A stretch of DNA of 64,000 nt from Micromonospora sp. WMMD980 (GTDB lineage: Bacteria; Actinomycetota; Actinomycetes; Mycobacteriales; Micromonosporaceae), in assembly GCF_029626035.1 (NCBI RefSeq), contig NZ_JARUBE010000003.1, positions 1 to 64,000 of the forward strand, given 5' to 3'. Positions 10,129 through 52,379 of the stretch are shown one piece after another. Both the position numbers and the translations under genes were made by a program. Below the pieces are notes generated by a model. It was not told the origin of the DNA, did no database searches, and saw nothing but the letters and a program-made list of their open reading frames with translations. Every line of letters begins with the position of its first letter. Within the stretch, counting starts at the first letter, position 1.

Positions 10129-10147
10129 CGGACGTCACTCTCTCCAC

Positions 10148-10268
10148 GTTGCATGCGTGCAACGGTAGGTGCCCGACCGGTCGCGCTCAAATCAGCCGAA
10201 CGGCTGATGTGTTGCATGGTTGCAACATCACCGTGTTGCGGCGTACGGTCTGCTGCATGAGTGCAGCA
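10148..10268. promoter_or_regulatory. Operator array at the left edge of the unit, upstream of the XRE gene
   Basis: Three palindromes share the core TGCA-N4-TGCA: GTTGCA-N4-TGCAAC at 10148-10163 and at 10211-10226, and TGCTGCA-N4-TGCAGCA at 10251-10268, the last covering the XRE start codon. A fourth palindrome, ATCAGCCG-AA-CGGCTGAT, lies at 10191-10208. A -10-like TACGGT (10244-10249) ends 7 nt before the ATG, suggesting a leaderless, self-repressed transcript. Confidence 0.7.
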
Positions 10269-10502
10269 CCGACACGAGGCGACATTGCAGCATCGTCGCC
10301 GATCCGGCTGCGAACCGACGTGTTCGATCGGCTCGCGACATCCCTCGCGGACACCGAGCAGGACCGGGCGAACCTGCTCGGCCTCGACCGGGCCACCCTC
10401 TGGCGCATCCGCAAGGGGCAGACGCCCACCCTGCGGGTTGCCATGCGCATCGCCGAGTCCCTCGGCTCCACCGTCGACGAGCTGTTCGAGGTCGCGCCGT
10501 GA
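10257..10502 (+). CDS. Cro/XRE-type phage regulator
   Basis: 81 residues from ATG 10257. HTH about 35-62 (EQDRANLLGLDRATLWRIRKGQTPTLRVAMRIAESLG) as in Cro/C1-type proteins. No ribosome site; the start codon sits inside one of three matching palindromes, so autoregulation is likely. First gene of a run of some fifteen plus-strand early genes with 4-nt overlaps. Confidence 0.8.
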   Translation: MSAAPTRGDIAASSPIRLRTDVFDRLATSLADTEQDRANLLGLDRATLWRIRKGQTPTLRVAMRIAESLGSTVDELFEVAP

Positions 10503-10687
10503 CGCACCCGCCCAGCGGCCCACAGACGCCGCCGCCGCCGTCCGGCCCCCGAGTCCCGAAGGTCGCCCCGATCGACCCGGACAGCCCCGCCGGCCGCGCC
10601 GCCACCGAGGCGCTGTCGCAGGCACTCGCCGAGATCCAGGTCGCCATCTGGCGGCGCAAGGCCGCCGCGAAGAACGCAGCGGCCTGA
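10499..10687 (+). CDS. Small Pro-rich hypothetical protein
   Basis: 62 residues from GTG 10499 (GTGA overlap with the XRE gene). Pro-rich N-terminus, then a helix ATEALSQALAEIQVAIWRRKAA. Function unknown. Confidence 0.55.
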   Translation: MTHPPSGPQTPPPPSGPRVPKVAPIDPDSPAGRAATEALSQALAEIQVAIWRRKAAAKNAAA

Positions 10688-10696
10688 GCACGACGA

Positions 10697-10724
10697 AGCC
10701 CCCGCCGTCCGACCGGCAGGGGCT
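10697..10724 (+). terminator. Imperfect hairpin, attenuator-like
   Basis: AGCCCCCGCCG pairs with CGGCAGGGGCT with one mismatch and a 6-nt loop, between the XRE pair and the next gene; a partial stop separating regulator from early operon. Confidence 0.45.
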
Positions 10725-10760
10725 CCCCACCCGGATCCAAGCCCAACACGAGGAGTCCAA

Positions 10761-11111
10761 GTGCAGACGCAGAGTACCCCGATCATCCGCCGGGACCTCC
10801 ACACCAGCCCGGCTTCCCTCGCGGCCGCGCTCCGCAGCGCCGCCGACCAGCTCGACCTGATGGGCCACGTCGAGATCAGCCCCATCGCTCTCCAGCTCAA
10901 CCTCCAAGCCGTGGCCCACCAAGGCACCTTTGAGCAGCGCAAGGACACCATCGACGCGCTGGGCATCGCCCTGGTCGGCGAGCCGGGCGTCACCGAGGAC
11001 TGCGACGGCCCGTACCACCGGCTGCCCTTCGAGCACCGCGGAGCGCGGGGCGACTGCGACATCGCGCTCTACACCGCCAGCAACGACTCTCGCCGTGGCG
11101 GCGCCCGATGA
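10761..11111 (+). CDS. Hypothetical early phage protein
   Basis: 116 residues from GTG 10761 with AGGAG upstream. Helical first half (SPASLAAALRSAADQLDLMGHVEI), acidic second half. No family recognised. Couples by ATGA to the next gene. Confidence 0.6.
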   Translation: MQTQSTPIIRRDLHTSPASLAAALRSAADQLDLMGHVEISPIALQLNLQAVAHQGTFEQRKDTIDALGIALVGEPGVTEDCDGPYHRLPFEHRGARGDCDIALYTASNDSRRGGAR

Positions 11112-11452
11112 GCCACCCGACGAACCCGTACCCCGGCCCGAACCCGCCGACCGGGCCCGGCCCGTGCGTCGACGACCCGACCGGCCTGACCTTCGACCGG
11201 GCCGACCTGGACGAGCCGGCCACCACCCGCACCGCCGGCGCCGGCTGGGCGGTCACCGGCCGGGGCCCGTACGCCATGCAGATCAAGGACTGCTGCGGCA
11301 TCGGCGCCGGCGAGGCCTGCGACTGCGCCGAGATGACCCGCCAGCTCCACCACGCCCCGGTGATCCGGCTTGCGCCGTTCAACCTCCGCCAGCTCGCCGC
11401 GCAGCACATCACCGCCGCCGAGCAGGACCGGCGAGAGCGAGGTGCCGCATGA
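11108..11452 (+). CDS. Hypothetical protein with clustered cysteines
   Basis: 114 residues. Pro-rich start; DCCGIGAGEACDCAEM at about 61-76 holds four Cys in 12 residues, a likely metal site. ATGA overlaps at both ends. Function unknown. Confidence 0.55.
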   Translation: MSHPTNPYPGPNPPTGPGPCVDDPTGLTFDRADLDEPATTRTAGAGWAVTGRGPYAMQIKDCCGIGAGEACDCAEMTRQLHHAPVIRLAPFNLRQLAAQHITAAEQDRRERGAA

Positions 11453-11940
11453 GCCTGTTCCCGACTCCGTTCCGCCTCACCCTACTCGACCGGGTCGCCG
11501 CCGGCACCGTCCAGTACGGCATCGGCCCCGACGGCTCGCCCACCGGCCCGCGGCGCGCTCCGGCCGCCTGGGACGTCAGCGACCCGCACCGTGGGCCGCA
11601 GAAGGTCACCGCCGCCATCACGGAGATGGCGACCGCCGGCTGGGTCGAGCGTCCGGACCGGTCTGCGGTCTGGCGGCTGACTCGGCTCGGTCGTGCCGTT
11701 CACTCCGTGCGGCTCATGGACTACGGCACGCACGCCGTCGCCGAGACCGGCCCCGTCGACGAGCCGACGTACCTCGGCATCGTTGAGGGCGACCCGAACC
11801 GGCCGTCGCGGTGGCTGGCCCGGGTCGGCCCGGACACAGTCGCCGGCCTGCGCCGGCCCGCCGCGGTCGCCGCGCTGCACCGCCTGGCCGTCGCCGCGGT
11901 CGTCGCCATGGAGGCCGACGCCCTGGACGGTGCCGCGTGA
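11449..11940 (+). CDS. Winged-helix-like DNA-binding protein
   Basis: 163 residues from ATG 11449. The stretch KVTAAITEMATAGWVERP...WRLTRLGRAVHSV (about 50-82) resembles a MarR-type recognition helix and wing. Possible early-gene regulator; weak similarity by eye only. Confidence 0.55.
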   Translation: MSLFPTPFRLTLLDRVAAGTVQYGIGPDGSPTGPRRAPAAWDVSDPHRGPQKVTAAITEMATAGWVERPDRSAVWRLTRLGRAVHSVRLMDYGTHAVAETGPVDEPTYLGIVEGDPNRPSRWLARVGPDTVAGLRRPAAVAALHRLAVAAVVAMEADALDGAA

Positions 11941-12071
11941 CCCGCCGCCGCACGTGGGGCCTCGCCCTGCTCACCAGCCTCGCCCTCTGGACCGCCCTCT
12001 ACGGCATCGCCCACTGCGTCGCCACCGCCACCTGGAACTTCGTCACCCTGCTCGCCCAGGCGGCGGCATGA
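11937..12071 (+). CDS. Small membrane peptide
   Basis: 44 residues from GTG 11937, overlaps its neighbours by 4 nt at both ends. One long hydrophobic stretch (WGLALLTSLALWTALYGIAH). Probably a single-pass membrane peptide of the early region; role unknown. Confidence 0.55.
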   Translation: MTRRRTWGLALLTSLALWTALYGIAHCVATATWNFVTLLAQAAA

Positions 12072-12343
12072 ACACCGCGCTGACCATCTGGGCGCTCGCG
12101 TCCATCGGCGTGTGCGTGGTCGTCGCCCTGGCTGTGTACGGGCCGGTGCTCGCCCCGGTACGCCGCGAAGGCCGCGCCGTCACCCGGGCCGCGCAGACCG
12201 CGACCGCCGCCATCGAGGCTCGGGCCGCCGAGGTCGACCTCACCCCCGCGCAGCAGCAGGCCATCGACGCGTTCCGCGCTCAGCTCGCCGCGCTGCCCAC
12301 CGCCGCCGAACCCCGGCCCATTTGGAAGGACCTCCTGCCGTGA
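12068..12343 (+). CDS. Single-pass membrane protein with coiled-coil tail
   Basis: 91 residues. Membrane segment LTIWALASIGVCVVVALAVYG (5-25) followed by a helical, Ala/Arg-rich cytoplasmic part (ARAAEVDLTPAQQQAIDAFRAQLAAL). Coupled to the membrane peptide before it. Function unknown. Confidence 0.6.
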   Translation: MNTALTIWALASIGVCVVVALAVYGPVLAPVRREGRAVTRAAQTATAAIEARAAEVDLTPAQQQAIDAFRAQLAALPTAAEPRPIWKDLLP

Positions 12344-12672
12344 GCACCACCTACACCGGCCGGCACCGCCGCGGCGCCGTCGTGCCCGCCCCCGCCGACT
12401 ACAACCCCCTCGCACCCGCCGACCGGCAAGCCCTCGCCCCCCACCACTGGGCCGACCGGGCCCTGCCCGCCGGCCCCGACGAGCGCACCGGCCGCATCGA
12501 CCCGACCGTCGTGCAGGCGCTGCGCCAGCCCACCCCCGTCGACCAGGACCGCACGCAGATCCTCGCCGACATCCGCGCCGGCGCGAACACCCCGCCGGAA
12601 GTCCTCGCCTCCCTCAACGCGTGGAAGGCCGCCGGCTGCCCCATGACCGACGAGACGGGAGACCAGCAGTGA
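12340..12672 (+). CDS. Hypothetical early protein
   Basis: 110 residues from GTG 12340. Basic, Pro-rich N-terminus and a helical C-terminus (ILADIRAGANTPPEVLASLNAWKAAG). No family recognised. Confidence 0.55.
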   Translation: MSTTYTGRHRRGAVVPAPADYNPLAPADRQALAPHHWADRALPAGPDERTGRIDPTVVQALRQPTPVDQDRTQILADIRAGANTPPEVLASLNAWKAAGCPMTDETGDQQ

Positions 12673-12908
12673 CCGCCCTCACCATGCCGGCCGCGCCGGA
12701 GGTCGCGCCGATCGACCTGCGCGCCATCCGGCTCATCGCCGCCGGCTACACCGTCCGCCAGGTCGCCCGCAGTCTCGGCTCCAGCGAGGCCGCGACCTGG
12801 TCGCGACTCGCACGGATGCGCAGGCAGCTCGGCGCGAAGACCCTCACGCACGCCGTCGTCATCCTGGCCCGCGCCGGCCAGCTCGACCTCACGGAGATCA
12901 CCCGATGA
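12669..12908 (+). CDS. LuxR/GerE-type helix-turn-helix regulator
   Basis: 79 residues from GTG 12669. IDLRAIRLIAAGYTVRQVARSLGSSEAATWSRLARMRRQLGAKTLTHAVVILARAG is a stand-alone LuxR C-terminal HTH. Sits just before the helicase gene (ATGA overlap) and may control the replication genes. Confidence 0.75.
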   Translation: MTALTMPAAPEVAPIDLRAIRLIAAGYTVRQVARSLGSSEAATWSRLARMRRQLGAKTLTHAVVILARAGQLDLTEITR

Positions 12909-14266
12909 CCGACACCGACCTGCGACTGGCCGACCTCGTCGGCACCGAACAGCCGCCCCCGCCGGCGCCCGTCGCCACCGGCGACCTCGACTTCGCGCCC
13001 CAGCAGGAAGAGGCCATCCGCCGCATCACCGACTGGTACGCCGACGGGGACAGCCAGGTGTTCCGGCTGTTCGGCTACGCCGGCACCGGCAAGACCACCC
13101 TCGCCCGGCACATCGTCGAAGGCCTCGGCGTCTCCGCCCTGTACGCGGCGTTCACCGGCAAGGCCGCCTACGTCCTGCGGTCGAAGGGCTGCGACGGCGC
13201 GTCGACCGTCCACAGCCTCATCTACCAGCCTGTGGAAAAGGCCCGCAAGCGGCTGGAGGGGCTGAAGGCGCAGCTGCGCGACAGCGACGACCCGGGCGAA
13301 CGGGCCGAGCTGGCCCGGCACATCGCCGCCGAACAGGCGAAGATCGACAGCCCGGACTGGATCCTCCGCGATGAGTCCGAGCTGTCCGCCGCCAACCTCC
13401 TCGTCCTCGACGAGGTGTCGATGGTGGGCGAGCGGATGGCCTACGACCTGCTCACCTACGGCACGAAGATCCTGTGCCTCGGCGACCCCGCCCAACTCCC
13501 GCCGGTCGACGGCGGCGGCTACTTCATCAACGCCGCACCCGACCACCTCCTCACCGAGATCCACCGCTCCGCCCTCGACAGCCCCGTCACCCGGATGGCC
13601 ACCGCCATCCGCGACAGCCAGCCCGGCCAGCGCAACTACGGCATCACCGGGCAGGACGGCGACTCCGGCCGCCTCGACCGCATGTCGATCGGTGAACTGC
13701 TGGAGTTCGACCAGGTCCTCGTCGGCCGCAACGCCACCCGCTGGCAGGCCGTGCACCTCCTGCGGGCGCTGCGCGGCCTCACCGGCGGCCCCCAGGCCGG
13801 CGACCGGATCATCGCCCTCGCCAACAGCGGCGAGGCCGAGGTGTTCAACGGCCAGCAGTTCGACGTCGTCGACACCCTCGACAGCGACCGACCCGACCGA
13901 CACCGCCTCGTCGTCCGCGACGACGAAGGCAACCAGCGGGACCTGACCTGCTGGGCGTCCGGGTTCCGCGACCTGGAGGGCGAGAAGCAGGCGAAGCGGG
14001 ACGGCCGCGGCACCGTCGTGGCCGCCACCTTCGCCCAGGCCATCACCACCCACAAGAGTCAGGGCTCCCAGTGGCCCCGCGTCCTCGTCGTCGACGAGAG
14101 CTCCGTCTTCTACGGCGCCGCGTACCGCGAGCACGCGAAGACGCTCGGCCCGGCCGCTGCCGCGATCGAGGGGCACGTCAACGGCCGACGGTGGCTGTAT
14201 ACGGCGATCACGCGGGCGTCACACCGGGCCGTCATCGTTCCCAGCCTCAACGGAGTCCTCTCATGA
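12905..14266 (+). CDS. RecD/Dda-like superfamily 1 DNA helicase
   Basis: 453 residues. Walker A GYAGTGKT (about 56-63), Walker B LVLDEVSMVGE (about 166), and a C-terminal UvrD-type block with THKSQGSQWP (about 381) and TAITRAS near the end. Resembles RecD2/Dda single-domain helicases of phages that drive replication or recombination with 5'-3' polarity. Lies two genes before the Cas4/RecB-like nuclease, suggesting a phage recombination/replication set. Confidence 0.85.
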   Translation: MTDTDLRLADLVGTEQPPPPAPVATGDLDFAPQQEEAIRRITDWYADGDSQVFRLFGYAGTGKTTLARHIVEGLGVSALYAAFTGKAAYVLRSKGCDGASTVHSLIYQPVEKARKRLEGLKAQLRDSDDPGERAELARHIAAEQAKIDSPDWILRDESELSAANLLVLDEVSMVGERMAYDLLTYGTKILCLGDPAQLPPVDGGGYFINAAPDHLLTEIHRSALDSPVTRMATAIRDSQPGQRNYGITGQDGDSGRLDRMSIGELLEFDQVLVGRNATRWQAVHLLRALRGLTGGPQAGDRIIALANSGEAEVFNGQQFDVVDTLDSDRPDRHRLVVRDDEGNQRDLTCWASGFRDLEGEKQAKRDGRGTVVAATFAQAITTHKSQGSQWPRVLVVDESSVFYGAAYREHAKTLGPAAAAIEGHVNGRRWLYTAITRASHRAVIVPSLNGVLS

Positions 14267-14763
14267 CCACGCCGAAGCGCATCCAGCGCCGTCGTACCCC
14301 CGGCTGGCGGATGCCCGCCAACACCGCCTACGTCGGCCGCCCCACCAAGTTCGGCAACCCCTTCGGCTACCACCAGCAGATGGGCGGCCTCGTCCACTAC
14401 GGCCCGAACCACCTGGAGCGGTTCGGCCGCGCCTGGGACTTCGAGGGCCGCATCAGCGGCGACGGCAACCGCCACGACATGTGGTTCAGCCAGGAGGACG
14501 TCGTCGAGACCTACGTGCGGTGGGGCACCCGCGCCGAGCTGGTCGAGCTGTTCCGGCTCACCCTCACCCGCCCGACGCCCGGCATGCTCTTGTCGTACCC
14601 GAGCCGCGGCGGCCGGTTCCTCAAGGTCTCCATCGCGGACATCCGCCGCGACCTCGCCGGCAAGAACCTCGCCTGCTGGTGCCCCATCGGCGAACCCTGC
14701 CACGCCGACGTCCTCTTGGAGATCGCCAACGCCCCGGTCGTCGCTGAGCTGGTGACGGCATGA
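14263..14763 (+). CDS. DUF4326 protein
   Basis: 166 residues. NTAYVGRPTKFGNPF (about 19-33) and the C-terminal NLACWCPIGEPCHADVLLEIAN (about 130-151) are the two marks of DUF4326, a family common in phages and sometimes met near nucleotide-metabolism genes. The Cys/His set (C-W-C...C-H-A-D) suggests a metal or active site. Biochemical function unknown. Confidence 0.75.
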   Translation: MTTPKRIQRRRTPGWRMPANTAYVGRPTKFGNPFGYHQQMGGLVHYGPNHLERFGRAWDFEGRISGDGNRHDMWFSQEDVVETYVRWGTRAELVELFRLTLTRPTPGMLLSYPSRGGRFLKVSIADIRRDLAGKNLACWCPIGEPCHADVLLEIANAPVVAELVTA

Positions 14764-15932
14764 CGTCGGCGGTGGACAGCGAGCTGGCCGCGCTCATCGA
14801 GTCGCTGCGCCTCGCCCCGACCCCGGCCGCTCCGGCCGAGCCGCGCTGTGCGGTCACCGAGCTGCTCGTCACCGCCTGCGCGCACTGCCGGCCGGCCGTC
14901 GACGAGGAGCCGGCCCGCCTCGGCCCGTGGATCAGCGCCACCTACCGCGGCCGGTGCGGCGGCTGCGGCGCCACGATCGAGGAGCTCGACGAGATCCGCG
15001 CCGACCCGACCCGGGGCGGCTGGCTCGGCCGATGCTGCGGCGAGCAGCCGGTCACCGCGCCGGCCGGGCAGACCCCTGACGGGCTGATCGTCGCGCCGGC
15101 GCCGCAGATCGCGGTGCCGGCCGGCCCGCCGCCGTCGACCGTGGCCGAGATGCGGGAAGTCCTCGGTGACCTCGACGCGTCCCGGCCCCGCAGCCAGCAG
15201 GTCCGGCTCGGCCCGTCCGAACTGGGCACCCCCTGCCAGCGGCAGATCGCCATGAAGCTCGCCGGCATCGTGCGGCAGCCGGAGGACAAGCGGCCTCCGT
15301 GGGCGCCGATGCAGGGCACCGCCATGCACGGCCTCATGGAAGAGGCGCTGCGCTTCCACAACGCGCAGCTCGGCCGCGAACGGTGGCTCGTCGAGGAGGC
15401 CCTGGTCGTCGACCCCGGTCTGCCCGACGTCGACCCGATCACCGGCCACGGCGACGCGTACGACACCGACCACGGGATGGTCGTCGACTGGAAGTACACC
15501 GGCGTCACCGCCCTGCGCGCCGTCAAGCGCAAGACCGTCCCCAACGACCAGCTCGTCAAGCCCGAGTACCGGGTCCAGGCCCACCTGTACGGGCGCGGCC
15601 ACGAGCGCGCCGGCCGCGACGTCCGCTACGTGCGGCTGGTGTTCCTGGCCCGCTCCCACGACTACGCGGACAGCGCGGAGTGGACCGAGGAGTACCGGCC
15701 CGACATCGCCGAATGGGCCGTCAACCGGTTCTACGAGACCCACGACCTCATCGGCGTCAACGGCCTCAACCTCGCCGCCAACCCCGAACTGTGGCCCGCG
15801 GTGCCCGCCGAGCCCGGCAAGGCGTGTTCGTGGTGCCCGTTTCGAAGGGTCGGCGGGCCGGCGGACCAGACCGGCTGCCCGGGCGATACCGACCAGAAGA
15901 TCAACAACCAGCTCCGTGGGCTGATCGCATGA
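14760..15932 (+). CDS. Cas4/RecB-like PD-(D/E)XK exonuclease with Fe-S cysteine pattern
   Basis: 390 residues. N-terminal zinc-like part (CAHC near 39, CGGC near 65), then the nuclease: GHGDAYDT (about 230) and VVDWKYTG (about 242) supply D...DxK, with QAHLYGRG behind. One Cys before (GTPC, about 158) and CSWC...GC after (about 355-372) fit the four-Cys Fe-S cluster of Cas4/AddB-like nucleases. In phages such enzymes resect DNA ends for recombination. No cas genes or CRISPR are nearby. Confidence 0.8.
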   Translation: MTSAVDSELAALIESLRLAPTPAAPAEPRCAVTELLVTACAHCRPAVDEEPARLGPWISATYRGRCGGCGATIEELDEIRADPTRGGWLGRCCGEQPVTAPAGQTPDGLIVAPAPQIAVPAGPPPSTVAEMREVLGDLDASRPRSQQVRLGPSELGTPCQRQIAMKLAGIVRQPEDKRPPWAPMQGTAMHGLMEEALRFHNAQLGRERWLVEEALVVDPGLPDVDPITGHGDAYDTDHGMVVDWKYTGVTALRAVKRKTVPNDQLVKPEYRVQAHLYGRGHERAGRDVRYVRLVFLARSHDYADSAEWTEEYRPDIAEWAVNRFYETHDLIGVNGLNLAANPELWPAVPAEPGKACSWCPFRRVGGPADQTGCPGDTDQKINNQLRGLIA

Positions 15933-16372
15933 CCGCCACCACGCTGGAGCGCCTCCGCCGCGGCTTCGTGCAGGGCGGCGACGACGAGTGCTGGCTGTGG
16001 CATCGGGCGAAGGACCCGTTCGGCTACGGGCGCATCTGGCACGACGGCGGCATGCGCCTTGCCCACCGGGTGATGTTCGAGCTCCACCGCGGCCCGGTCC
16101 CGGAGGGCCTAGTCCTCGACCACCTGTGTCGGGTGACCAGTTGCGTCAACCCGGCTCACCTCGAACCGGTGGCGCACGCGGTCAACGTCCGGCGAGGCAA
16201 CTCCGGCAGGGCGCAGGCGGCAAGGACCCACTGCCCGCGCGGCCACGAGTACACGGAGGACAACACGCACATCGGGAAGAGCGGCAGTCGCTTCTGCCGC
16301 ACCTGCGACAAGAGCCGAAGCCAGGACAAGAACCGGATCCGGAACCTCCGGAGAAGAGGAGTCATCAAGTGA
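15929..16372 (+). CDS. HNH endonuclease, free-standing homing type
   Basis: 147 residues. AHRVMFELHRG...GLVLDHLCRVTSCVNPAHLEPV (about 43-77) is the HNH_3 core with a zinc-binding C-terminal part (CPRGHEY...CRTC). These genes often behave as mobile insertions between phage genes; this one is inserted with perfect 4-nt overlaps, so if mobile it is well settled. Confidence 0.85.
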   Translation: MTATTLERLRRGFVQGGDDECWLWHRAKDPFGYGRIWHDGGMRLAHRVMFELHRGPVPEGLVLDHLCRVTSCVNPAHLEPVAHAVNVRRGNSGRAQAARTHCPRGHEYTEDNTHIGKSGSRFCRTCDKSRSQDKNRIRNLRRRGVIK

Positions 16373-17013
16373 CCAGCATCGATGCAAACAGCCTTTTGAT
16401 GGGTGGCGGCATCAAGTCCGTCAACTGGAAGGACAACCCGGTCGGCCACACCGTCATCGGCACCATCACCGAGACGCCGAAGGTCGAGCAGATGAAGAAG
16501 TTCAACTCCGACGAGCTGGACTTCTGGCCCTCCGGCGACCCGAAGATGCAGATCATCGTCACCCTCCAGACCGACCAGCGGGACCCGGCCAACGCCGACG
16601 ACGACGGCAAGCGCCGCCTGCACATCTCGCCGCGCATGATGACCTGCGTCCGCGAGGCCATCCTGAAGGTCGGCGCGAAGGGCCTGGAGATCGGCGGCCG
16701 GCTCGCCGTGCAGCGCGTCGGCGGCACCGGCGCCGTCGGCGACCCGTACACCTTCGCCGCCGAGTACGGCGCGCCGACCGTCGACCCGGGCGGCCTCCTC
16801 GGCGGCGGCCAGGGCACGCCGGCCGCCGCGCCGGTGTCGGCCGCGGCGCAGTCCCTCGGCATCAGCACTCCGCCGGCCGCCACGGCAGGTATCGCGTGCC
16901 CGCCCGGCATGGACCCGGGCAAGTGGGCCGCCCTCCCGGTCGAGCAGCAGCGCGCCATCTCCGCCGCCATGGCCCCCCAGCCGGCCACCCCCGGTGTCAC
17001 CCCGCCGTTCTGA
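16369..17013 (+). CDS. Putative single-stranded DNA-binding phage protein
   Basis: 214 residues from GTG 16369. N-terminal half has the beta-rich rhythm of an OB fold (KDNPVGHTVIGTITETPKVEQ..., MQIIVTLQTDQRDP..., KGLEIGGRLAVQRVGGTG), the C-terminal half is Ala/Pro/Gly-rich and disordered. Placed between recombination nucleases and primase, where an ssDNA-binding protein would be expected. By-eye assignment. Confidence 0.5.
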   Translation: MTSIDANSLLMGGGIKSVNWKDNPVGHTVIGTITETPKVEQMKKFNSDELDFWPSGDPKMQIIVTLQTDQRDPANADDDGKRRLHISPRMMTCVREAILKVGAKGLEIGGRLAVQRVGGTGAVGDPYTFAAEYGAPTVDPGGLLGGGQGTPAAAPVSAAAQSLGISTPPAATAGIACPPGMDPGKWAALPVEQQRAISAAMAPQPATPGVTPPF

Positions 17014-17040
17014 TCCCGCCCGCTCCACCCAGCTCAACCG

Positions 17041-17071
17041 CCGGCCCCGACCCCGCCCGGGGCGGGGCCGG
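17041..17071 (+). terminator. Hairpin terminator
   Basis: CCGGCCCCGACCCC pairs with GGGGCGGGGCCGG (one bulge/mismatch), loop GCCC; it separates the gene ending at 17013 from that starting at 17094. Confidence 0.6.
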
Positions 17072-17093
17072 CCCCATCAAGATCGGAGCATCG

Positions 17094-43570: not shown

Positions 43571-43583
43571 CCCCGCACACGAC

Positions 43584-44706: not shown

Positions 44707-44744
44707 GGCCCCCGGCCGGGCGACTCCACCGCCGGCCGGGGGCC
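44707..44744 (+). terminator. Hairpin in the transfer operon (second copy)
   Basis: 13-bp stem as at 2737-2774. Confidence 0.65.
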
Positions 44745-44772
44745 TTGACCGGACCCCCTGGAGGCCCGACCC

Positions 44773-44937: not shown

Positions 44938-45119
44938 CGCCCGCCCAGTACGTCCTGATGATCGTCGTCGGTGGGACCGGCACGCCGCTGCTGGTGGCCG
45001 AGATCGCCCGCCGGCTGGTGGAGGGCCACGCCAACACCACCGCCCGCGCGATCCGCGAGCAGCAGCCCGCCGCACCGGCCCGGGCCGCCGCCGTCCGTGA
45101 GAAGGAGTTGACGCGGTGA
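44934..45119 (+). CDS. Small membrane protein, Spd-like (second copy)
   Basis: Identical to 2964-3149; 61 residues, coupled to both neighbours. Confidence 0.6.
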   Translation: MTPAQYVLMIVVGGTGTPLLVAEIARRLVEGHANTTARAIREQQPAAPARAAAVREKELTR

Positions 45120-46519
45120 GCCTTTTTCGCCGGTTGATCCCCGACCCGGAGCTGGAGCGCGCCCGCGCCGAGGCGTCCCGGGAGCAGGCCCGCGCCGACC
45201 TGGAGCGCGCCCGCGTCGAGGCGCAGATCCAGCGGGAGCGCCAGGCCGCCGACGCCGAGTTCGCCCGCCAGCAGACCCTCGCCGACGAGGAGGAGAAGCG
45301 GCGCCGCGACGGCGTACGCCGCGCCGAGCGGGAGGAGCGGTCCAAGCGGCGGCGGAAGGCCCGCGCCGAGTTCGCCGCGAAGCTGCGCCCGGTGCTGCCG
45401 CTGCTGCTCATCAACGGCGGCGCCGCGTACGCCCAGGGCGCGTACGCCTACGAGGAGATCGCCCCCGCCCACTGGAACACCCCGTCGAAGGTCGCGTTCG
45501 CGGTCGCGTTCTCCGCCGCGTTGGAGTCGATCGCTGTGTACGTGCAGTGGCACGCCCACGACGCGCTCCTGCTCAACGCGCACGCCACGGCGGCCGGGCT
45601 GCGGCGGGCCGCGTGGGGCATCGCCGGGGTGGTGGCGGCCATCAACTACGCGCACTTCGCCGGTGAGGGCATGGCGCCGACGTCGGCGGCGGTGGCGTTC
45701 GCGCTGCTGTCGCTGCTGTCGCCGTGGCTGTGGGGTTTGCACACCCGCCGCGCTCAGCACGTGCAGCTGCTCGCCGAGGACGCCAACCTCATCGACGAGG
45801 GCGGCGTGGAGTTCTCCCCGCAGCGGCGGCGCGCGTTTCCGTTCCGGGCGTGGCAGGCCCGCCGCTGGTCCATCGACCACGGGGAGCGGGACCCGCGCCG
45901 CGCCTGGGACGGCTACAACCGCGACCGGCGGCGCCAGCTCGCCCAGCGCCCGCCGGCCGGCCGGCTCCGCGCGGCGGTCACCGTGCTGCGCGGCAAGTCC
46001 GTCCCGGCCGGCCCGGTCATCGACGGGGAGGTCAGCGACAAGGAGCAGGAGCTGATCGACCTGGTGCTGGCGCAGGCCCGCGCCGCCGGCCCTCGACTGA
46101 GGGCGCGGACCGCCACGGCACGCAGCTTCCACTGGCCCGCGCCGCCCGCCATCCCGCCGACCACAACCCGCCACGACGACGGCCTGGACGCGCTCGTGGT
46201 GGCGACCTCGGAACCCGCCACCCCGCCCGCCATCGACCCGCCACCGGCCCGCCAGCCGGAGCCGACCGAACCCGCCACCGTGGCGACCCGGCAACCCGCC
46301 ATCGTGGCGGCTGCCGCACCCGCCACGCGGATCACCCGCCGGGTCGCCATCGACCCGCCAGTGCGACCCGCCAAGTCCAACGCCGACCGGGTCGCCGAAC
46401 TGGTCGCCAAGAAGCCCGCCATGACGCAGGAGCAGGTCGCCAAGAAGCTCGGCCTCGGCATCCGCACCGTCCAGCGGTACTGGCCCAAGAACACCACCAC
46501 TGATCGCAAGGAGGACTGA
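45116..46519 (+). CDS. DUF2637-family membrane protein, SpdB-like (second copy)
   Basis: Identical to 3146-4549: coiled coil, four membrane segments, disordered linker, C-terminal HTH in 467 residues; acts with the adjacent translocase. Confidence 0.8.
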   Translation: MSLFRRLIPDPELERARAEASREQARADLERARVEAQIQRERQAADAEFARQQTLADEEEKRRRDGVRRAEREERSKRRRKARAEFAAKLRPVLPLLLINGGAAYAQGAYAYEEIAPAHWNTPSKVAFAVAFSAALESIAVYVQWHAHDALLLNAHATAAGLRRAAWGIAGVVAAINYAHFAGEGMAPTSAAVAFALLSLLSPWLWGLHTRRAQHVQLLAEDANLIDEGGVEFSPQRRRAFPFRAWQARRWSIDHGERDPRRAWDGYNRDRRRQLAQRPPAGRLRAAVTVLRGKSVPAGPVIDGEVSDKEQELIDLVLAQARAAGPRLRARTATARSFHWPAPPAIPPTTTRHDDGLDALVVATSEPATPPAIDPPPARQPEPTEPATVATRQPAIVAAAAPATRITRRVAIDPPVRPAKSNADRVAELVAKKPAMTQEQVAKKLGLGIRTVQRYWPKNTTTDRKED

Positions 46520-46525
46520 CCCCCG

Positions 46526-48679
46526 ATGCCCGAGCAGATCGACCTGGACGAGCTGGAGCCGGTCGTCCCCGCGCCCCGCCCCGGCGAGCCCGACTACTAC
46601 GAGCCCCGCGGCGAGCAGGTCGCCATCACGCCCGGCACCGACACCGGCAAGCCCGTCGACCTGCCCCGCACCTCCACGACGTTCGCCGACGTCAGCTCGC
46701 GGTACAGCGGGCCCCGCAAGCCCATCGTGCCGGCCACCCTGCGCTCCAAGGCGGGCCGGCACGCCATGGTGCAGTGGGCACTCGCCTTCGCCGGCTACAC
46801 CCTCGCCTACCACGTCACCCGATCCCCGAAGTACCTGGCGAAGACCGCCGTCTTCGCACCCTGGGGGGCGCTGCGGCTGTCCGGCAAGGCCATCCACTGG
46901 ACGTTCGACCTGGAAGGCTTCGGCATCCGGCAGGACGCCGCCAGCCGCAACAACGTACAGGACTACCTGGCCCTGTCCCGGCAGCGTGACCGGCGCGTGG
47001 GCGCCCGCGCCTGGCTGGCCGTGCCTGGGGTGCTGCTGCTGGTCGTGCTGGCGCTGCTGCTGGTGTTCGTCGCGCCGTGGTGGGCGCAGGCCCTCGCCGC
47101 GGCCGTCCTGGTGCCGCTGTTCGCGTACGCCGGGCAGCCAATCGACGCGCCGATCGTGGACCGGGTGTTCACCGCTGACAGGTTCGTCCGCCTCACCGCC
47201 ACCCTGACCCGGCAGGCGATCCTGGCCTGCAACGTCAAGGGCATCAAAGAACCGAAGGACATCAAGTTCCTGTTCGACATCTCTCTCGCCGGCCCCGGCC
47301 ACGAAGCTCTGGTGCTGCTGCCCGCCGGTGTGCTGGCCACCGACGTCATCGACGAGCGCGACCGCCTCGCCTCCGGGTTCCGGCTGCCGAAGACGCAGGT
47401 GTGGCCGGCCACCGTCCCTGGCGAGCACCCCGGCGTACTGTCCATCTGGATCGCCCAGAAGCCTGTGAGCAGCATGAAGGCCCCGGCCTGGCCGCTGCTG
47501 GAGAGCGGCACGTTCGACTACTTCACTGACAAGTTCGTCTACGGCCACGACGAGCGGATGCGGCCCGTCTACTACTCCCTGGCCGAGAAGAACTCCCTGT
47601 TCGGGGGCATCCCCGGTTCCGGGAAGACCCTTGCGGCGCGGCTGGTCATGCTCGCCGCCATCCTCGACCCGCTGGTCGTGCCGCTGGCGTTCGACCTGAA
47701 GGGCTCCGGTGACCTCGACTGCTTCGAGCCGCTGTGCCCGGACGGGCTGCACGGCTCCGGCGCCGACGAGGGCACCAAGGCCGCGGCGATGGCCGCCCTG
47801 GAGTGGCTGCTGACCGAGTGCGACGAGCGGGCGCCGCTGGTCCGCAAGTACGCAGCTCAGGGCATGAACACCGCCAACAAGGTCAACCGGCGGATGGCCG
47901 AGCACGACGCCCGGCTGCGCCCGCTGGTGGCGTTCTTCGACGAGATCCAGGAACTGATCACCGACCCGACCCACGGCAAGCGGGCGAAGTTCCTGCTCAC
48001 GTCCATCGTCAAGCGTGACCGGGCGCTCGGCATCCACCTGATCCTCGCCTCGCAGCGCATCGACAAGGAGTCGATCCCGAAGGGCATCAGCAGCAACATG
48101 GCCCTGCGGACCTGCCTGGCGGTCACCTCGCACACCGAGGTGAACCTGGTCCTCGGCACCGGTGCGTACTCCGCCGGCGCCCGGCCCACCGAGTTCGAGA
48201 CGGGCGACTCGACCGGCCCGAAGGACTCCGGGTGGGGCTACCACGCCGGTGACGGGCCGATCCGGCCGCGCCGGTCCAGCTTCGTCGACAACCCGGCGGC
48301 CGAGCGGGTCGTGCAACGGGCCCTGGAGATGCGCCAGGGTGACAAGCCGGTCGAGGTGCCGCGTATCGCGCTGCGGAACCTGCTCGCTGACGTCCGGCAG
48401 GTGTGGTTCGAGGGCGAGGAGGCGATCTGGTCGGAGCTGATCGTGCCGCGGTTGAAGCATCTCGACCGGGACGCGTACGGCGATCTGACCGTCGAGGTGT
48501 TCGGCGCGTGGATGGCTCGGGCCGGGGTGAAGACGGAGAGCATCAACCGGCGGATCGACTCCAGCTCGACCAAGCGGGCCACCCGGGCCGGCGTGAAACT
48601 GGCCGCCCTGGAGGCCCGGATCGCCGAGAAAACCGCCGAGACGATCGCCTCAACCGACCTCGCTGAGGTCGAGGACTGA
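46526..48679 (+). CDS. FtsK/TraB-type DNA translocase (second copy)
   Basis: Identical to 4556-6709: 717 residues, two membrane segments, Walker A GGIPGSGKT, Walker B LVAFFDEIQE. In this complete context it lies about 4.5 kb downstream of the phage late operon terminator, on the same strand. Confidence 0.88.
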   Translation: MPEQIDLDELEPVVPAPRPGEPDYYEPRGEQVAITPGTDTGKPVDLPRTSTTFADVSSRYSGPRKPIVPATLRSKAGRHAMVQWALAFAGYTLAYHVTRSPKYLAKTAVFAPWGALRLSGKAIHWTFDLEGFGIRQDAASRNNVQDYLALSRQRDRRVGARAWLAVPGVLLLVVLALLLVFVAPWWAQALAAAVLVPLFAYAGQPIDAPIVDRVFTADRFVRLTATLTRQAILACNVKGIKEPKDIKFLFDISLAGPGHEALVLLPAGVLATDVIDERDRLASGFRLPKTQVWPATVPGEHPGVLSIWIAQKPVSSMKAPAWPLLESGTFDYFTDKFVYGHDERMRPVYYSLAEKNSLFGGIPGSGKTLAARLVMLAAILDPLVVPLAFDLKGSGDLDCFEPLCPDGLHGSGADEGTKAAAMAALEWLLTECDERAPLVRKYAAQGMNTANKVNRRMAEHDARLRPLVAFFDEIQELITDPTHGKRAKFLLTSIVKRDRALGIHLILASQRIDKESIPKGISSNMALRTCLAVTSHTEVNLVLGTGAYSAGARPTEFETGDSTGPKDSGWGYHAGDGPIRPRRSSFVDNPAAERVVQRALEMRQGDKPVEVPRIALRNLLADVRQVWFEGEEAIWSELIVPRLKHLDRDAYGDLTVEVFGAWMARAGVKTESINRRIDSSSTKRATRAGVKLAALEARIAEKTAETIASTDLAEVED

Positions 48680-48749
48680 TAGCCCCTGCTAGGGCTAGCG
48701 CTAGCCCCTCCTCTAGGCCCTCTGAGCTGGGAACTAGGCGCTAGCCCCG
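48680..48749. other. Candidate clt/TRS-like repeat cluster (second copy)
   Basis: TAGCCCC-type octamers at 48680, 48702, 48714 and 48742 and the palindrome at 48692-48707, as at 6710-6779. Confidence 0.45.
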
Positions 48750-48788
48750 CAGGCGGTCCGATCCCCGGAAACGCCCCCTGGAGGCGCT

Positions 48789-49028
48789 GTGAGAGGCACG
48801 CTGACCACTACCGCTATCGGTGTCGCCCTGGTCCTGTTCGTGGTCGCCAGGATCGCGCTGTTCCCGCTGAAGGACTGCTGGTGCTGCAGCGGGCAAGGTG
48901 TGCACCGCTCCGACCTGAACCGGAAGCATCAGCGCCGCTGCTGGTGGTGCAAGGGCACCGGCAAGCGGTGGCGGATCGGGCGCCGGATCTGGAACCGGAT
49001 GCGGCAGAAGCACCACGACGCCCGCTGA
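48789..49028 (+). CDS. Membrane protein with DnaJ-type zinc knuckles (second copy)
   Basis: Identical to 6819-7058; CWCCSGQG and CWWCKGTG behind one membrane segment. Confidence 0.6.
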   Translation: MRGTLTTTAIGVALVLFVVARIALFPLKDCWCCSGQGVHRSDLNRKHQRRCWWCKGTGKRWRIGRRIWNRMRQKHHDAR

Positions 49029-49040
49029 CCCGGACGCAGC

Positions 49041-49073
49041 GACGCCCCCGACCACGCGATGGTCGGGGGCGTC
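49041..49073. terminator. Terminator after the transfer operon (second copy)
   Basis: 14-bp stem, 5-nt loop, as at 7071-7103. Confidence 0.8.
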
Positions 49074-49080
49074 CTCGTGT

Positions 49081-49257
49081 TCAGCGGGCGAGGGCGGCGG
49101 CGCGCTTCCGGCGGTGCTCGGCGAGGAGCTGGGCCGCGTACGCGCCGGCCTCGCACGTCCCGGCCCGACAGTCCGGGCACTGCCGGTGCGCCTCCAGGAT
49201 CGTCGCCCCGACCGCGACGTCGCCCCGCTGCCCGAGGTCCGGGCACATCCCGGTCAC
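49081..49257 (-). CDS. Small Cys-containing protein (second copy)
   Basis: Identical to 7111-7287; 58 residues, CPDCRAGTC. Confidence 0.5.
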   Translation of the reverse strand: MTGMCPDLGQRGDVAVGATILEAHRQCPDCRAGTCEAGAYAAQLLAEHRRKRAAALAR

Positions 49258-49511
49258 CGGTTCACCGCGTCGTACAGAGCCGGGATCCAGACCGCCACCT
49301 TCACGCACCACTCCCGCGCGCACGCCACCGACTCCCAGTGGCACTCCGGCATGTGCACCAGCAGCCACACCCAGCCCGGCACGCCCTCCATGTCGCCGAC
49401 CTTCACGACCCGCACGTCCATGTAGATCGTGCCGAGCTGACCCATGTGGCTCGCCCACTCGCCGGGGCGCAGCGACACCCTGGTCCCGGCCGGGATCTCG
49501 GGGACGGTCAC
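49254..49511 (-). CDS. Hypothetical small beta-type protein (second copy)
   Basis: Identical to 7284-7541; 85 residues. Confidence 0.55.
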   Translation of the reverse strand: MTVPEIPAGTRVSLRPGEWASHMGQLGTIYMDVRVVKVGDMEGVPGWVWLLVHMPECHWESVACAREWCVKVAVWIPALYDAVNR

Positions 49512-49678
49512 CGGTACTCACCTCCGCCCTCGTTGCGGATGCGTGCCGCCTGGTCGAGTAGGCGGCGGCGCGCGTTGCGCGCATCCGCCTCGTCTACGCG
49601 CCGCCCGAGAGTTGGGCGGGTCGACGGTTCGGGCCGACCGATCAGCCGGCGGACAAGGGTACGGATCGGCTGTGCCAC
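49508..49678 (-). CDS. Small Arg-rich hypothetical protein (second copy)
   Basis: Identical to 7538-7708; 56 residues, GAGGGAGG ribosome site. Confidence 0.5.
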   Translation of the reverse strand: MAQPIRTLVRRLIGRPEPSTRPTLGRRVDEADARNARRRLLDQAARIRNEGGGEYR

Positions 49679-49935
49679 ACACGCCTCCCTCGGTCGGGTG
49701 GGCGCGGCGACGGGTGTCGTGGTGCAACCTCCGCCGCCGCTACCCGGGGCGCGGTGCTCGCGGACAGTGGGCCCTGTCGCTCACGCCGTGCCCGGCCGGA
49801 TGCGACCGCAGCCACGCTCTGGGTGCTGAAGGCTTCGCACTGCCGCATCCGTCGCCAGCGAACAATTCGCCGACGCATTGGTCACGATCGCATCGTTCCT
49901 TCAAGGTCACAAGAGCGACACGGATAGTGAACAAG
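49679..49935. other. Non-coding stretch, no confident feature (second copy)
   Basis: Same as 7709-7965; presumably holds the promoter of the minus-strand operon starting at 49678. Confidence 0.4.
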
Positions 49936-49973
49936 AAGAGGGCCGGCACCCCGGATGGGATGCCGGCCCTCTT
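49936..49973 (-). terminator. Terminator of the XRE/DUF397 operon (second copy)
   Basis: 13-bp stem as at 7966-8003. Confidence 0.75.
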
Positions 49974-49984
49974 ATCGCGAGGAA

Positions 49985-50221
49985 TCAGATGTGGTCGAAC
50001 GCCCCGGCCTTCGCCCCGGCCAGGAACGCCGTCCACTCCGCCCGGTTGTAGACCTGGATCGGCGCATCCGCGCCGGCCTTGCTGTCGGCCACGGCCACGT
50101 CCCCCGATCCGTCGGCCGCCACCGAGAGGTAGATGCACCCCTCGTTGCCGCCGGACTCCGGGCTCTTCTCCCACGCGGCGAAGCGCGGGTCAGTGGTGTT
50201 GCTGAATCGCGGGTCGGACAT
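49985..50221 (-). CDS. DUF397 domain protein (second copy)
   Basis: Identical to 8015-8251; partner of the XRE/DUF5753 regulator. Confidence 0.85.
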   Translation of the reverse strand: MSDPRFSNTTDPRFAAWEKSPESGGNEGCIYLSVAADGSGDVAVADSKAGADAPIQVYNRAEWTAFLAGAKAGAFDHI

Positions 50222-50230
50222 CGGATCTCC

Positions 50231-51121
50231 TCACATCGTGGCGGCCAGCTTGTCGGCCGCCTCGCGGATGTACGCCGCACTGTCCGCGTCAGACAGTGCG
50301 GCCTCACGCAGCCGCAGATGCAACTGCGCGTACCCCGACACGTCCTCCGGCTCCGTGACGAGTAGCGCTTTCGTCACGTTGTCGACCACCACGATCGGCG
50401 GATCGTCCATGTCGGGGTAGCTCACGTGGCTGTACGGCGCCCGAGGGGCGTAGCCGTCGGCCAACTGCTGCGAGTCCAGCGGCACCACCCGCACGCTGAC
50501 GTGCTCGGCGCCGATCAGCGCCAGGAGGTGGTGCAGCTGCTTCAGCATCACGTCGGCGGGCACCGGCCGTCGGCGGATCGCCTGCTCCTCCAAGACCAGC
50601 TCGTAGTTCGCTTCACCACCGCCGACGCTCTGCCTCTGCCGCTGCATCCGGCCCCGCACGATCGCGTCGGTGTCGGTGATCGGTCCGTCCCCCGTGACCG
50701 CGAGAACCCGGTGGTGGGCGTACTCGGGAGTCTGCACGAGACCGGGAAGCAGCATGCCGGCGTACTCGCGGATCATCGACGCACCCGCCTCGACGAGCGC
50801 CCAGGTGCGCTGCCCGTCGCCCATCCGGCTGTGGGCAGGCGCGTCCCACCAGCGGCCGGTGAGCGCGTCCTCGGCGTACGCCTCGATGCGCGTCCAGTCA
50901 GGCCCGCCGCGCGGCACCTCAAGGGCGTCGAGCAGCCGCCGGATGGACAGCAGATTGGCGCGACGGTGCACGTCGCCGAACGGGTTCTCGGTCCGGGAGA
51001 TCACCGAGGCGGAGATGCCGCTGCGCCGGCTCAGCTCGGCGTGGTTGATGCCGCGGTCGAGTCGCAGCTTCAGCAGCGCGGCGGAGAGCCGCCGCTGGCG
51101 GGCCAGCGGGTTCGGGGTCAC
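50231..51121 (-). CDS. XRE-family regulator with DUF5753 (second copy)
   Basis: Identical to 8261-9151; 296 residues, N-terminal XRE HTH, C-terminal DUF5753. Confidence 0.88.
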   Translation of the reverse strand: MTPNPLARQRRLSAALLKLRLDRGINHAELSRRSGISASVISRTENPFGDVHRRANLLSIRRLLDALEVPRGGPDWTRIEAYAEDALTGRWWDAPAHSRMGDGQRTWALVEAGASMIREYAGMLLPGLVQTPEYAHHRVLAVTGDGPITDTDAIVRGRMQRQRQSVGGGEANYELVLEEQAIRRRPVPADVMLKQLHHLLALIGAEHVSVRVVPLDSQQLADGYAPRAPYSHVSYPDMDDPPIVVVDNVTKALLVTEPEDVSGYAQLHLRLREAALSDADSAAYIREAADKLAATM

Positions 51122-51149
51122 CGGTCCGACCTTCCTTTGCCGAGTCGAA

Positions 51150-51167
51150 TCGTGCCGGTCGGCACGA
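51150..51167. promoter_or_regulatory. Palindromic operator between XRE and GntR genes (second copy)
   Basis: TCGTGCCG-GT-CGGCACGA as at 9180-9197. Confidence 0.55.
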
Positions 51168-51350
51168 CATGAGCGTACTCAATGCGCACCGGCGACGGCG
51201 TTACCTGGATCGGTGTGCCCCGATACGCTGGGATGCACCCTCGACGCGGGTCGGGGCGGAGGGCCTGGCCGCGTCAGCCGGGCCCTCCACCACGCGCAAG
51301 GGGGACCCCGGGATCCCCGGGTGCCGGGATGTGAAGGCGTGTGCGGTCCG

Positions 51351-51356
51351 TACCGT
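51351..51356 (+). promoter_or_regulatory. -10 box of the GntR gene (second copy)
   Basis: TACCGT, 6 nt before GTG 51363, leaderless arrangement. Confidence 0.5.
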
Positions 51357-51362
51357 GCGACC

Positions 51363-51773
51363 GTGCTCGACCCCCACCTGGACCGGCCGCTCTTCCGGCA
51401 GCTCGCCGACGCCCTGCGGGACCAGATCATCACCGGCCAGCTCACACCGGGCAGCGCCGTGCCGTCCATCAAGGCGCTGGAGCACCGGTACGGGGTCAGT
51501 CGGGAGACCATCCGCCGGGCGCTGGCCGCGCTGCGCGTGGAAGGCCTCGTCGTCGCCGAGCGGGGCTACGGTACGCGGGTGGTCGACGAGCAGCCGCGCG
51601 AGCAGGTGAAGGTCCCTCGCGGCGCCCGGGTGCGGTCGCGGATGCCCACCGAGGCCGAGCGCGCCGAGCTGGGCATCGAGCCGGGCGCCGTGGTGCCCGT
51701 CCTGGTCGTGACGCTCGGCGGCCGGGTGCGTGGCGTGTACGCGGCAGACCGCGTGGAACTCACGTTCAGCTGA
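51363..51773 (+). CDS. GntR-family repressor, KorSA-like (second copy)
   Basis: Identical to 9393-9803; 136 residues, winged helix at the N-terminus. Here followed by an intact downstream gene, its probable target. Confidence 0.8.
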   Translation: MLDPHLDRPLFRQLADALRDQIITGQLTPGSAVPSIKALEHRYGVSRETIRRALAALRVEGLVVAERGYGTRVVDEQPREQVKVPRGARVRSRMPTEAERAELGIEPGAVVPVLVVTLGGRVRGVYAADRVELTFS

Positions 51774-51780
51774 CCGGGAA

Positions 51781-51795
51781 TGTGCGTTACGCACA
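51781..51795. promoter_or_regulatory. Inverted repeat upstream of the two-TM gene (second copy)
   Basis: TGTGCGT-T-ACGCACA as at 9811-9825. Confidence 0.5.
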
Positions 51796-51929
51796 CGTTA
51801 CGGCCGGTGCGGGATTTTTCGTTGTTGGCTGAAACTTCTTGAGTGTCGTGCAGGCCGGGCGCATGATCGGCGATCTACCTTGCAGAAAGCGCGCGGGGGT
51901 GCGCGCTCAGTGATCATGTGGGGGACGTC

Positions 51930-52379
51930 ATGTCGAACAGGAGTGACAACACAGCCGCCGCAGCACCGATCCGGCTCGCCATCGCCCACCAGCGAGCCCA
52001 CGACAAAGCCGAACGGGAGCAGCGCACCGCCCACGGACCCGGCCGGTGGCACCGAGGGCTGCTCGTCGCCGCCACCATCGCCGCACCGGCCAGCTGGATG
52101 GGACTCGCCTGGGCCGTCGCCATGTGGCACAACCACCAGGCGCTGTTCGGCCACCTCGTCTACGTCGGGTTCGCCACCGTCCTCGCACCCGTCGCCGTCG
52201 TCCTGGCCGTCGGCTACGTCGTACGGCGGGGCCAGGCCGAACAGCACCACGAACTCCTCGTCGCCGTCGACGCGCTGCTCATCGAAGCGGCGAAGCGCGA
52301 CGCCGACCTCGACCCCGCCAGCGCCGAAGCCGTCGAACGCATCGGCATGCGCCTGCTCAACGGCACCAGAACCAGCTGA
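51930..52379 (+). CDS. Intact two-TM protein spanning the repeat boundary
   Basis: 149 residues from ATG 51930 (GGGGG 9 nt upstream). Basic N-terminal 40 residues, membrane helix 1 (GLLVAATIAAPASWMGLAWAVAMW, about 44-67), helix 2 (LVYVGFATVLAPVAVVLAVGYVV), then an acidic helical tail. The repeat ends within helix 1, yet the protein reads as a natural whole, so this is the ancestral form and 9960-10128 the broken one. Membrane proteins in this place sit beside the attachment site of several AICEs; function unknown. Confidence 0.75.
   Translation: MSNRSDNTAAAAPIRLAIAHQRAHDKAEREQRTAHGPGRWHRGLLVAATIAAPASWMGLAWAVAMWHNHQALFGHLVYVGFATVLAPVAVVLAVGYVVRRGQAEQHHELLVAVDALLIEAAKRDADLDPASAEAVERIGMRLLNGTRTS

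Follow-up and report, generated by a model that had tools for sequence, protein, structure and literature searches.

Phage genes and pump module at the locus

The stretch of DNA analysed here (the window, 64,000 nucleotides) covers positions 1 to 64,000 of contig C3 (6.78 Mb) of Micromonospora sp. WMMD980, whose assembly consists of four contigs (C1–C4). It contains most of an integrated element in which the genes of a tailed phage are followed by a TraB-like DNA pump of the FtsK/SpoIIIE type (Table 1). Our reading, to which we assign a probability of about 0.7, is that this element is a temperate siphovirus-type prophage that also carries a TraB-type conjugation module, composed of a membrane protein, the FtsK-like pump, a clt-like site and a GntR regulator; pumps and repeats of this kind serve soil bacteria in the passage of DNA by contact, and judged from its sequence, the element may be able to travel as virus particles as well as through mating.

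The genes expected of an HK97-type tailed phage are present, with terminase, portal, prohead protease, HK97 capsid and tail genes, and the frames from the terminase to the tail (24738–39085) are all open. We use the label siphovirus-type because no contractile-tail family appeared among the matches of the scanned window proteins. The frame of the pump gene is open as well; an earlier note on this DNA had seen no sign that either of the two modules is degraded. The hydropathy of the pump peaks at residues 157–200 and its predicted fold resembles the FtsK motor and the conjugation protein TcpA; the pairing of an FtsK motor with a membrane part, by which TraB proteins of the Streptomyces type are recognized, is present, and the motif GGIPGSGKT is presumably the P-loop. 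In the model of the pump, C-terminal helices lie at residues 636–665 and 692–708. In TraB proteins a winged helix at this end recognizes the repeated 8-mers of clt; the C-terminal domain of the pump searched alone gave no Pfam match.

The earlier note had placed a DUF2637 protein, Spd-like proteins and GntR control beside the pump. The GntR gene was confirmed by its profile match. The DUF2637 assignment was supported by the similarity of the protein 5′ of the pump to the DUF2637 protein of plasmid pFP11 and weakened by the absence of a Pfam DUF2637 match, and the name Spd-like is owed to gene position. In the early region, part of the polymerase/primase resembles pump-adjacent proteins in 8 of the 13 loci or records of relatives compared, and in none of the rest.

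Table 1. Features of the element and its surroundings in the window. Sisters are the proviruses G302 and G305 described in the text; percentages are amino acid identities, E is the expectation value and aa stands for amino acids.
Positions	Strand	Feature	Basis or remark
1..10128	.	Second identical copy of 41971–52098, with which C3 begins	attP, integrase and XRE missing at the join to 10129
10127..52420	.	Element portion within the window, 42,294 bp	Contig comparison
12905..14266	+	AAA/UvrD-type helicase	PF13604, E 6e-23
14760..15932	+	Exonuclease (Cas4-like)	phrog_1674, E 6e-52
17789..20563	+	Phage-type DNA polymerase/primase	phrog_19930, E 1.5e-66
24738..26357	+	Terminase large subunit	phrog_9, E 9e-51; 84% and 68% to sisters
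26584..27870	+	Portal	PF04860, E 5e-87
27860..28570	+	Prohead protease	PF04586, E 3e-18
28606..29913	+	HK97-type major capsid protein	PF05065, E 7e-46; 94% and 92% to sisters
32173..32976	+	Head-tail connector	phrog_442, E 2e-27
33709..34125	+	Major tail protein	phrog_4574, E 4e-7
35035..36777	+	Probable tape measure protein	Position; phrog_34159 (no known function); 29–31% to sisters
38006..39085	+	Tail protein (DUF5047)	phrog_1887, E 1e-33; PF16466
40658..41503	+	Putative endolysin	Position; 66–68% to the same gene in sisters; no family match
43636..44403		GIY-YIG endonuclease beside the pump	Profile scan
45116..46519	+	Membrane-type protein in DUF2637/Spd position, 5′ of the pump	29% over 203 aa to pFP11 DUF2637 protein, E 5e-9
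46526..48679	+	TraB-like FtsK/SpoIIIE DNA pump, 717 aa	PF01580, E 6e-8; hydrophobic N-terminal part and FtsK motor
48677..48760	+	Candidate clt-like TAGC/GCTA repeat directly 3′ of the pump gene	8 in 133 nt; window mean 0.26 per 130 nt
49985..50221	-	DUF397 protein	PF04149
50231..51121	-	XRE-DUF5753 regulator	PF19054, E 4e-39
51363..51773	+	GntR regulator	PF00392, E 8e-19; 54% to that of G302
52401..53144	+	ssb-like gene of the host, disrupted at the start and intact in C4	PF00436, E 6e-18 for the C4 version
52412..52420	.	attR core CACGATCGT	Core also in attL (C1), attB (C4) and attP (C2)

Attachment sites and borders of the element

The borders of the element were found by comparing the contigs. 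C1 (23.9 kb) runs from the chromosome through 1,988 bp that are absent from the window to window position 10127 and onward. C2 (19.7 kb, reverse strand) consists of window 43216–52420, the same 1,988 bp and window 10127–18657, and in C4 (10.9 kb) the left chromosomal flank of C1 is joined directly to window 52412–57976. The 9-bp core CACGATCGT is common to every junction. C1 holds the attachment site attL, the window holds attR (52412–52420) and C4 is the empty attB; C2 is attP and may derive either from a circle after excision or from copies in tandem. As a circle, the element measures 44,282 bp (44.3 kb). The 1,988 bp outside the window (C1:13112–15099) occur only in C1 and C2 and code for two leftward genes, an XRE-type regulator and a 475-amino-acid serine recombinase, the integrase (C1:13137–14564; PF00239, E 6e-24; PF07508, E 7e-6). 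What is expected of a temperate phage at its attachment site, namely an integrase, attL and attR and an empty attB, was all present. The right end of C3 matches C1 until 355 bp short of the core, as expected for a circular chromosome.

Since the assembly also has the empty site of C4 and the circle or tandem junction of C2, the phage and pump modules lie inside one excisable unit. The earlier note had seen siphovirus genes and a pump module of the type found in actinomycete integrative and conjugative elements (AICEs) as one unit, and C1, C2 and C4 together with the window confirm a single unit bounded by attachment sites. Its proposed start at 10129 has to be corrected: in C1 and C2 the unit continues to the left into the 1,988 bp with the integrase and XRE genes, and its right end is attR. 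We give very little credit to the idea that a prophage and an AICE merely adjoin, side by side by chance or one inserted in the other, although most pump relatives of the family stand without a nearby portal and two related phages (G304 and G311) lack the pump. One pair of attachment sites encloses both modules, which largely refutes it as long as C1, C2 and C4 are correctly assembled; in C2 the pump module is joined at its right end to the integrase, the scan of the window proteins, which covered all but some small frames, revealed no integrase, and the sister proviruses have the same order.

The integration point lies in the first codons of the ssb-like host gene. To judge from the sequence, this gene could have a new start in the integrated state, at a TTG at 52401 from which a frame is open. 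The attP region of C2 (L017:10480–10560) contains a perfect 16-bp palindrome, CTCCACGATCGTGGAG, whose central AT is itself symmetric; the symmetric centre may bear on the direction of integration.

The window opens with a second copy of part of the element, positions 1–10128 repeating 41971–52098 exactly and the first mismatch occurring at 10129/52099. The join at 10128/10129, where two bases (GA) are common to both sides, omits 2,310 bp (the end of the frame 51930–52379, attP, the integrase and XRE). None of the other contigs agrees with it, and it may reflect either a chimeric read or a circle that has undergone deletion. This join, and the start of C3 inside the element, would suit the view that only a plain integrated prophage exists, the repeat spaced by 41,970 bp and the alternative contigs being products of faulty assembly. 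We hold such errors to be decidedly improbable: C4 and C2 join exactly at the 9-bp core and agree with attL and attR, which could hardly come from random chimeras, and the hybrid is also present in independent records. As a separate observation, contig C1 of another genome of the family, G120, has near its start two equal-scoring terminase and portal matches 48,004 bp apart (about 8248–11119 and 56252–59123), as in the window.

A repeat at the 3′ end of the pump gene

The pump gene is followed directly by a TAGC/GCTA repeat (the sequence reads TAGCCCCTGCTAGGGCTAGCGCTAGCCCC and more). We counted TAGC or GCTA per 130-nt step and took six or more as a cluster. In the window, clusters were found only at the two copies of the pump 3′ end (24 of 6,387 steps; the duplicate copy at steps 6610–6720), and in G302 and G305 only at the 3′ end of their own pump gene (4 of 4,470 and 5 of 4,304 steps, respectively). 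At non-phage pump loci, as defined below, six or more TAGC/GCTA follow the gene in 23 of 34 cases, 15 of which have 12–14. Lettered by eye, the repeat is TAGCCCC in the window and in genomes G120 and G298, and GGTAGCG in G302 and genome G040; the lettering seems, on these sequences, to follow the pump clade. When repeated 8-mers were compared with 40 shuffles, the signal was strong (none or one shuffle as high) at 7 of 15 pump loci. The control plasmid pSVH1 has GACCCGGA repeats directly after its FtsK-domain gene, and two ACCCGGA words lie 3′ of the pump of provirus G778.

The pump of Streptomyces plasmids acts on the clt repeat, and in pWTY27 clt comprises 16 bp of traA and 159 bp adjoining it, according to the part of the source available (PMC3583192). 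The repeats of the window, G302 and G305 stand at the pump 3′ end, the position of clt in conjugative Streptomyces plasmids, and we regard 48677–48760 as a candidate clt-like site at the expected place.

The pump might serve the phage in another way, by moving the prophage circle across septa of the same mycelium, by segregating an episome or by packaging DNA. PHROGs classes phage FtsK-like proteins as moron/host takeover, and the Spd-driven spread of plasmids within the mycelium belongs to TraB systems, in the part of PMC4170104 available. We nevertheless consider such a use unlikely. The element has a terminase of its own, the repeat stands at the clt position in the window and both sisters, and the nearest pump relatives found lie in plasmids and in genome loci with no portal close by, not in phage records: the window pump searched against phage records gave three weak matches only, the membrane protein before it gave none, and IMG/VR scanned with the window pump itself yielded no relative.

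Sister proviruses

Relatives with a related portal or capsid were drawn from IMG/VR. Two of them, G302 (IMGVR_UViG_2936116814_000001, 44.8 kb) and G305 (2855676851_000001, 43.2 kb), have the same layout as the window element: integrase and regulator come first, then the early, head, tail and lysis genes, and after these a protein in the DUF2637 place and the pump. Their capsids are 94% and 92% identical to that of the window and their terminases 84% and 68%, respectively, but their pumps only 26% and 42%. The protein before the pump has 45% identity over 60 amino acids in G302 and no recognizable relation in G305. Both sisters have integrases of the tyrosine type, as against the serine integrase of the window element, so the left end of the element has been exchanged too. 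The presence of a pump at this position in two sisters with capsids 92–94% identical makes insertion by chance unlikely. The same combination, for which the earlier note had proposed to search, occurs in the sisters with the same gene order and, as described below, in other genera. Capsid relatives are rare among genomes (3 of 354 of the family and 2 of 394 of the class, our own included in both counts), and a portal scan of the collection of genome contigs gave no match.

Between the head genes of the window lies a stretch of 1.2 kb (30921–32162) with no family match and no counterpart in the gene lists of G302 and G305. A tRNA-Arg (CCG) called by ARAGORN at 31479–31556 is unsupported, a scan of window 10000–52500 against Rfam having given no match.

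Origin of the pumps

Two pump trees were calculated, one with 28 rows and one with 25 rows from which the long-branched pFP3, G760 and P. broussonetiae pumps had been removed. A pump was called non-phage when no PF04860 portal lay within 40 kb of it on its contig, many contigs being short; NBC00562, pFP11 and pSVH1 were given this label from annotation, the records of the latter two being available in part. The phage pumps do not group together in either tree, and the starred branches force four changes between the phage and non-phage labels with 28 rows and five with 25 rows. The window pump pairs with the non-phage pump of G120 (68% identical, support 100/100) and lies within a starred set of ten, nine of them non-phage. 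The pump of G302 pairs with that of G040 (100/100), and the pump of G778 with that of plasmid pFP11 (96/94), the DUF2637 neighbour of the former being 61.5% identical to that of the latter. A single clade of the window, G302 and G305 pumps was rejected by the approximately unbiased (AU) test in the 28-row tree (p-AU 1.3e-37), as was a clade of the window and G305 pumps in the 25-row tree (p-AU 4e-69); the tree program warned of long branches meeting between the G302 group and the G778 group. GntR-like genes and relatives of the polymerase and helicase were found near several non-phage pumps.

Because the pumps of the sisters are distant from that of the window and lie elsewhere in the pump tree, we conclude that the slot was kept and its content swapped with pumps of non-phage elements, which fits a pump that is an exchangeable module in a kept slot. 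The frequent swapping of pump alleles, together with the lack of a pump in some related phages, would also agree with a module that is a passive remnant, open but unused and carried along by recombination. This we think very unlikely in view of the open frame with its presumed P-loop, the clade-lettered repeat of the window, G302 and G305, and the fact that one phage lineage has gained open pump genes more than once. We tentatively propose that an integrating actinophage lineage keeps a fixed slot for the pump and its cis-site and that the slot has been refilled repeatedly from AICE-type elements and plasmids; dual spread, by particles and through contact of hyphae, would then be a selected way of life rather than an accident. 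In the literature searched, which was largely open-access, no integrating prophage lineage was described as having an exchangeable slot for a pump and its cis-site.

Other phage-pump hybrids

Among IMG/VR records of 30 kb or more, a clear pump was found in at least 4 of 37 (G302 through the window pump; G305, G760 and G778 through PF01580). G786 was dropped from this count, as its pump was under the Pfam cut-off and had no match to the pump set. A related capsid was found in 22 named genomes, and in at least 5 of them, three loci from metagenome-assembled genomes being left out of this count, a pump lies within about 30 kb of the capsid: Streptomyces filamentosus JCM 4122, Streptomyces sp. ISL-94, S. 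katrae NRRL B-16271, Streptomyces sp. NBC_01214 and Pseudonocardia oceani KRD185. S. virginiae (G792) was excluded because its pump locus and capsid locus do not overlap. The same strains may occur in both sets, and all hybrid counts are lower bounds since PF01580 alone misses real pumps, for example that of G302.

P. oceani has a 61-kb phage-plasmid with a pump, pPoc2, and in its chromosome a copy that is identical over the 57,484 bp compared; one end of the chromosomal copy lies 43 bp from a serine integrase gene. Virion genes and a pump also occur together in three plasmid records, namely pPaSha2, pFP3 and one from P. broussonetiae; the phage-like plasmids NBC_01177, NBC_01335 and NBC_01259 gave no PF01580 match.

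Within the family of the host, 109 other genomes bear pumps, and 108 of them were examined (30 + 78; G240 was left out). A portal stood on the contig of the pump in two, G030 (34 kb away) and G109 (27 kb away); these distances leave out one pump place of G273, which is on a different contig from its portal. In G030 (C8:78000–117800), terminase, capsid and tail genes are followed by a pFP3-type pump and a relative of the G305 gene in the DUF2637 place, with a second, G305-type pump 13 kb beyond the first, and by its gene content this locus looks like a further hybrid. In G109 the pump lies 5.8 kb after a lysin-like gene.

Proposed mechanism and points against it

In the mechanism that we propose, the serine integrase would excise the element, and the pump would assemble on the repeat at 48677–48760 and drive the circle, as double-stranded DNA, through septa or into hyphae nearby. 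By a second route, the element would be released as virions once its head and tail genes are induced, and XRE and GntR might govern the two routes separately. If the pump works, the prophage could leave the mycelium without killing it and reach hyphae that are resistant to its virions. If phages and non-phage elements exchange pumps time and again, this would help to explain how conjugation modules spread across the mobile elements of actinomycetes, and phages would become a route for mating genes. The pump, the site and the phage genes are all in one 44-kb element, and the assembly already has excised states.

Several results weigh against a prophage that also conjugates. The curated plasmid TraB model NF041214 gave the pump 21.8 bits, far under its cut-off of 800, and for this reason we call the pump TraB-like only. 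The TAGC motif was picked after the sequences had been inspected; the test for repeated 8-mers gave no significant result in the window (18 of 40 shuffles as high) and was also weak for G305 (25 of 40), G302 (7), pPaSha2 (14), G120 (39), G298 (27), G098 (8) and G757 (7). The TAGC array is absent after six of the nine phage pumps, those of pPaSha2, pFP3, P. broussonetiae, G760, G778 and pPoc2. C2 fits a tandem junction as well as it fits a circle, and no family match names a function for the tape measure, the endolysin and many of the early genes.

The distribution of the pump also counts here. It is absent from G304 (41.2 kb) and G311 (38.4 kb), whose capsids are 68% identical to that of the window, and from the contig that carries the related capsid in G124, G040 and G757; the pump is therefore dispensable. 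In 106 of the 108 pump-bearing genomes of the family, no PF04860 portal was found within 40 kb of the pump. The earlier note had taken relatives with only one module and a sharp boundary as the sign of a phage inserted by chance into an AICE. The outcome is divided, these genomes and pump-free phages pointing that way and the two sisters with both modules speaking against it.

Comparison with known systems

To our knowledge, AICEs have no virion genes, and we did not file the element as an AICE because it has them. It shares with AICEs the serine integrase, the FtsK-type pump, GntR and a candidate clt-like site. The G120 pump, which is 68% identical to that of the window, has no portal nearby. 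AICEs are recognized, in the part of PMC3218068 available, by an FtsK/SpoIIIE Tra protein (PF01580), an integrase (PF07508 or PF00589) and RepSA, RepAM (PF12307) or Prim-pol (PF09250). The element matches PF01580 and PF07508, and its polymerase/primase gave a PHROG match and no Pfam match.

Another comparison is pFP3 of Streptomyces sp. F2 (NC_023067), which has terminase-to-tail genes, DUF2637, an FtsK-domain protein and GntR within 34 kb; it differs in being a plasmid record with ParA and DnaB, in its tyrosine integrase and in its pump, which was not found by a search with the window pump. The Pseudonocardia plasmids pPaSha2 (CP052773) and pPoc2 likewise combine phage genes with a pump, that of pPaSha2 being 35% identical to the window pump, but their pumps are of other branches, they have no TAGC array and their layout is different. 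A similar element of Nonomuraea, PhiNon1, was found as a circle, as a prophage and as an empty site, according to the part of the source available (PMC5431353).

The combination of phage and conjugation is already known from the Streptomyces plasmid-phages pZL12 (Zhong 2010) and pFP4 (Chen 2012), which are reported to conjugate and to make infective particles in the part of PMC4170104 available, and the novelty that the earlier note had seen in a phage-conjugative hybrid was therefore overstated. Transfer of pZL12 requires a tra gene and two neighbours, as stated, with reference to others, in the available part of PMC3583192. Like these plasmid-phages, the element combines virion genes with a tra-type gene, and phage genes with a putative Streptomyces-type transfer function, in one replicon. 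Compared by description only, pZL12 and pFP4 are episomes, whereas the element is integrated as a prophage, carries a serine integrase and has its attB in an ssb-like gene; it is a variant of the same kind.

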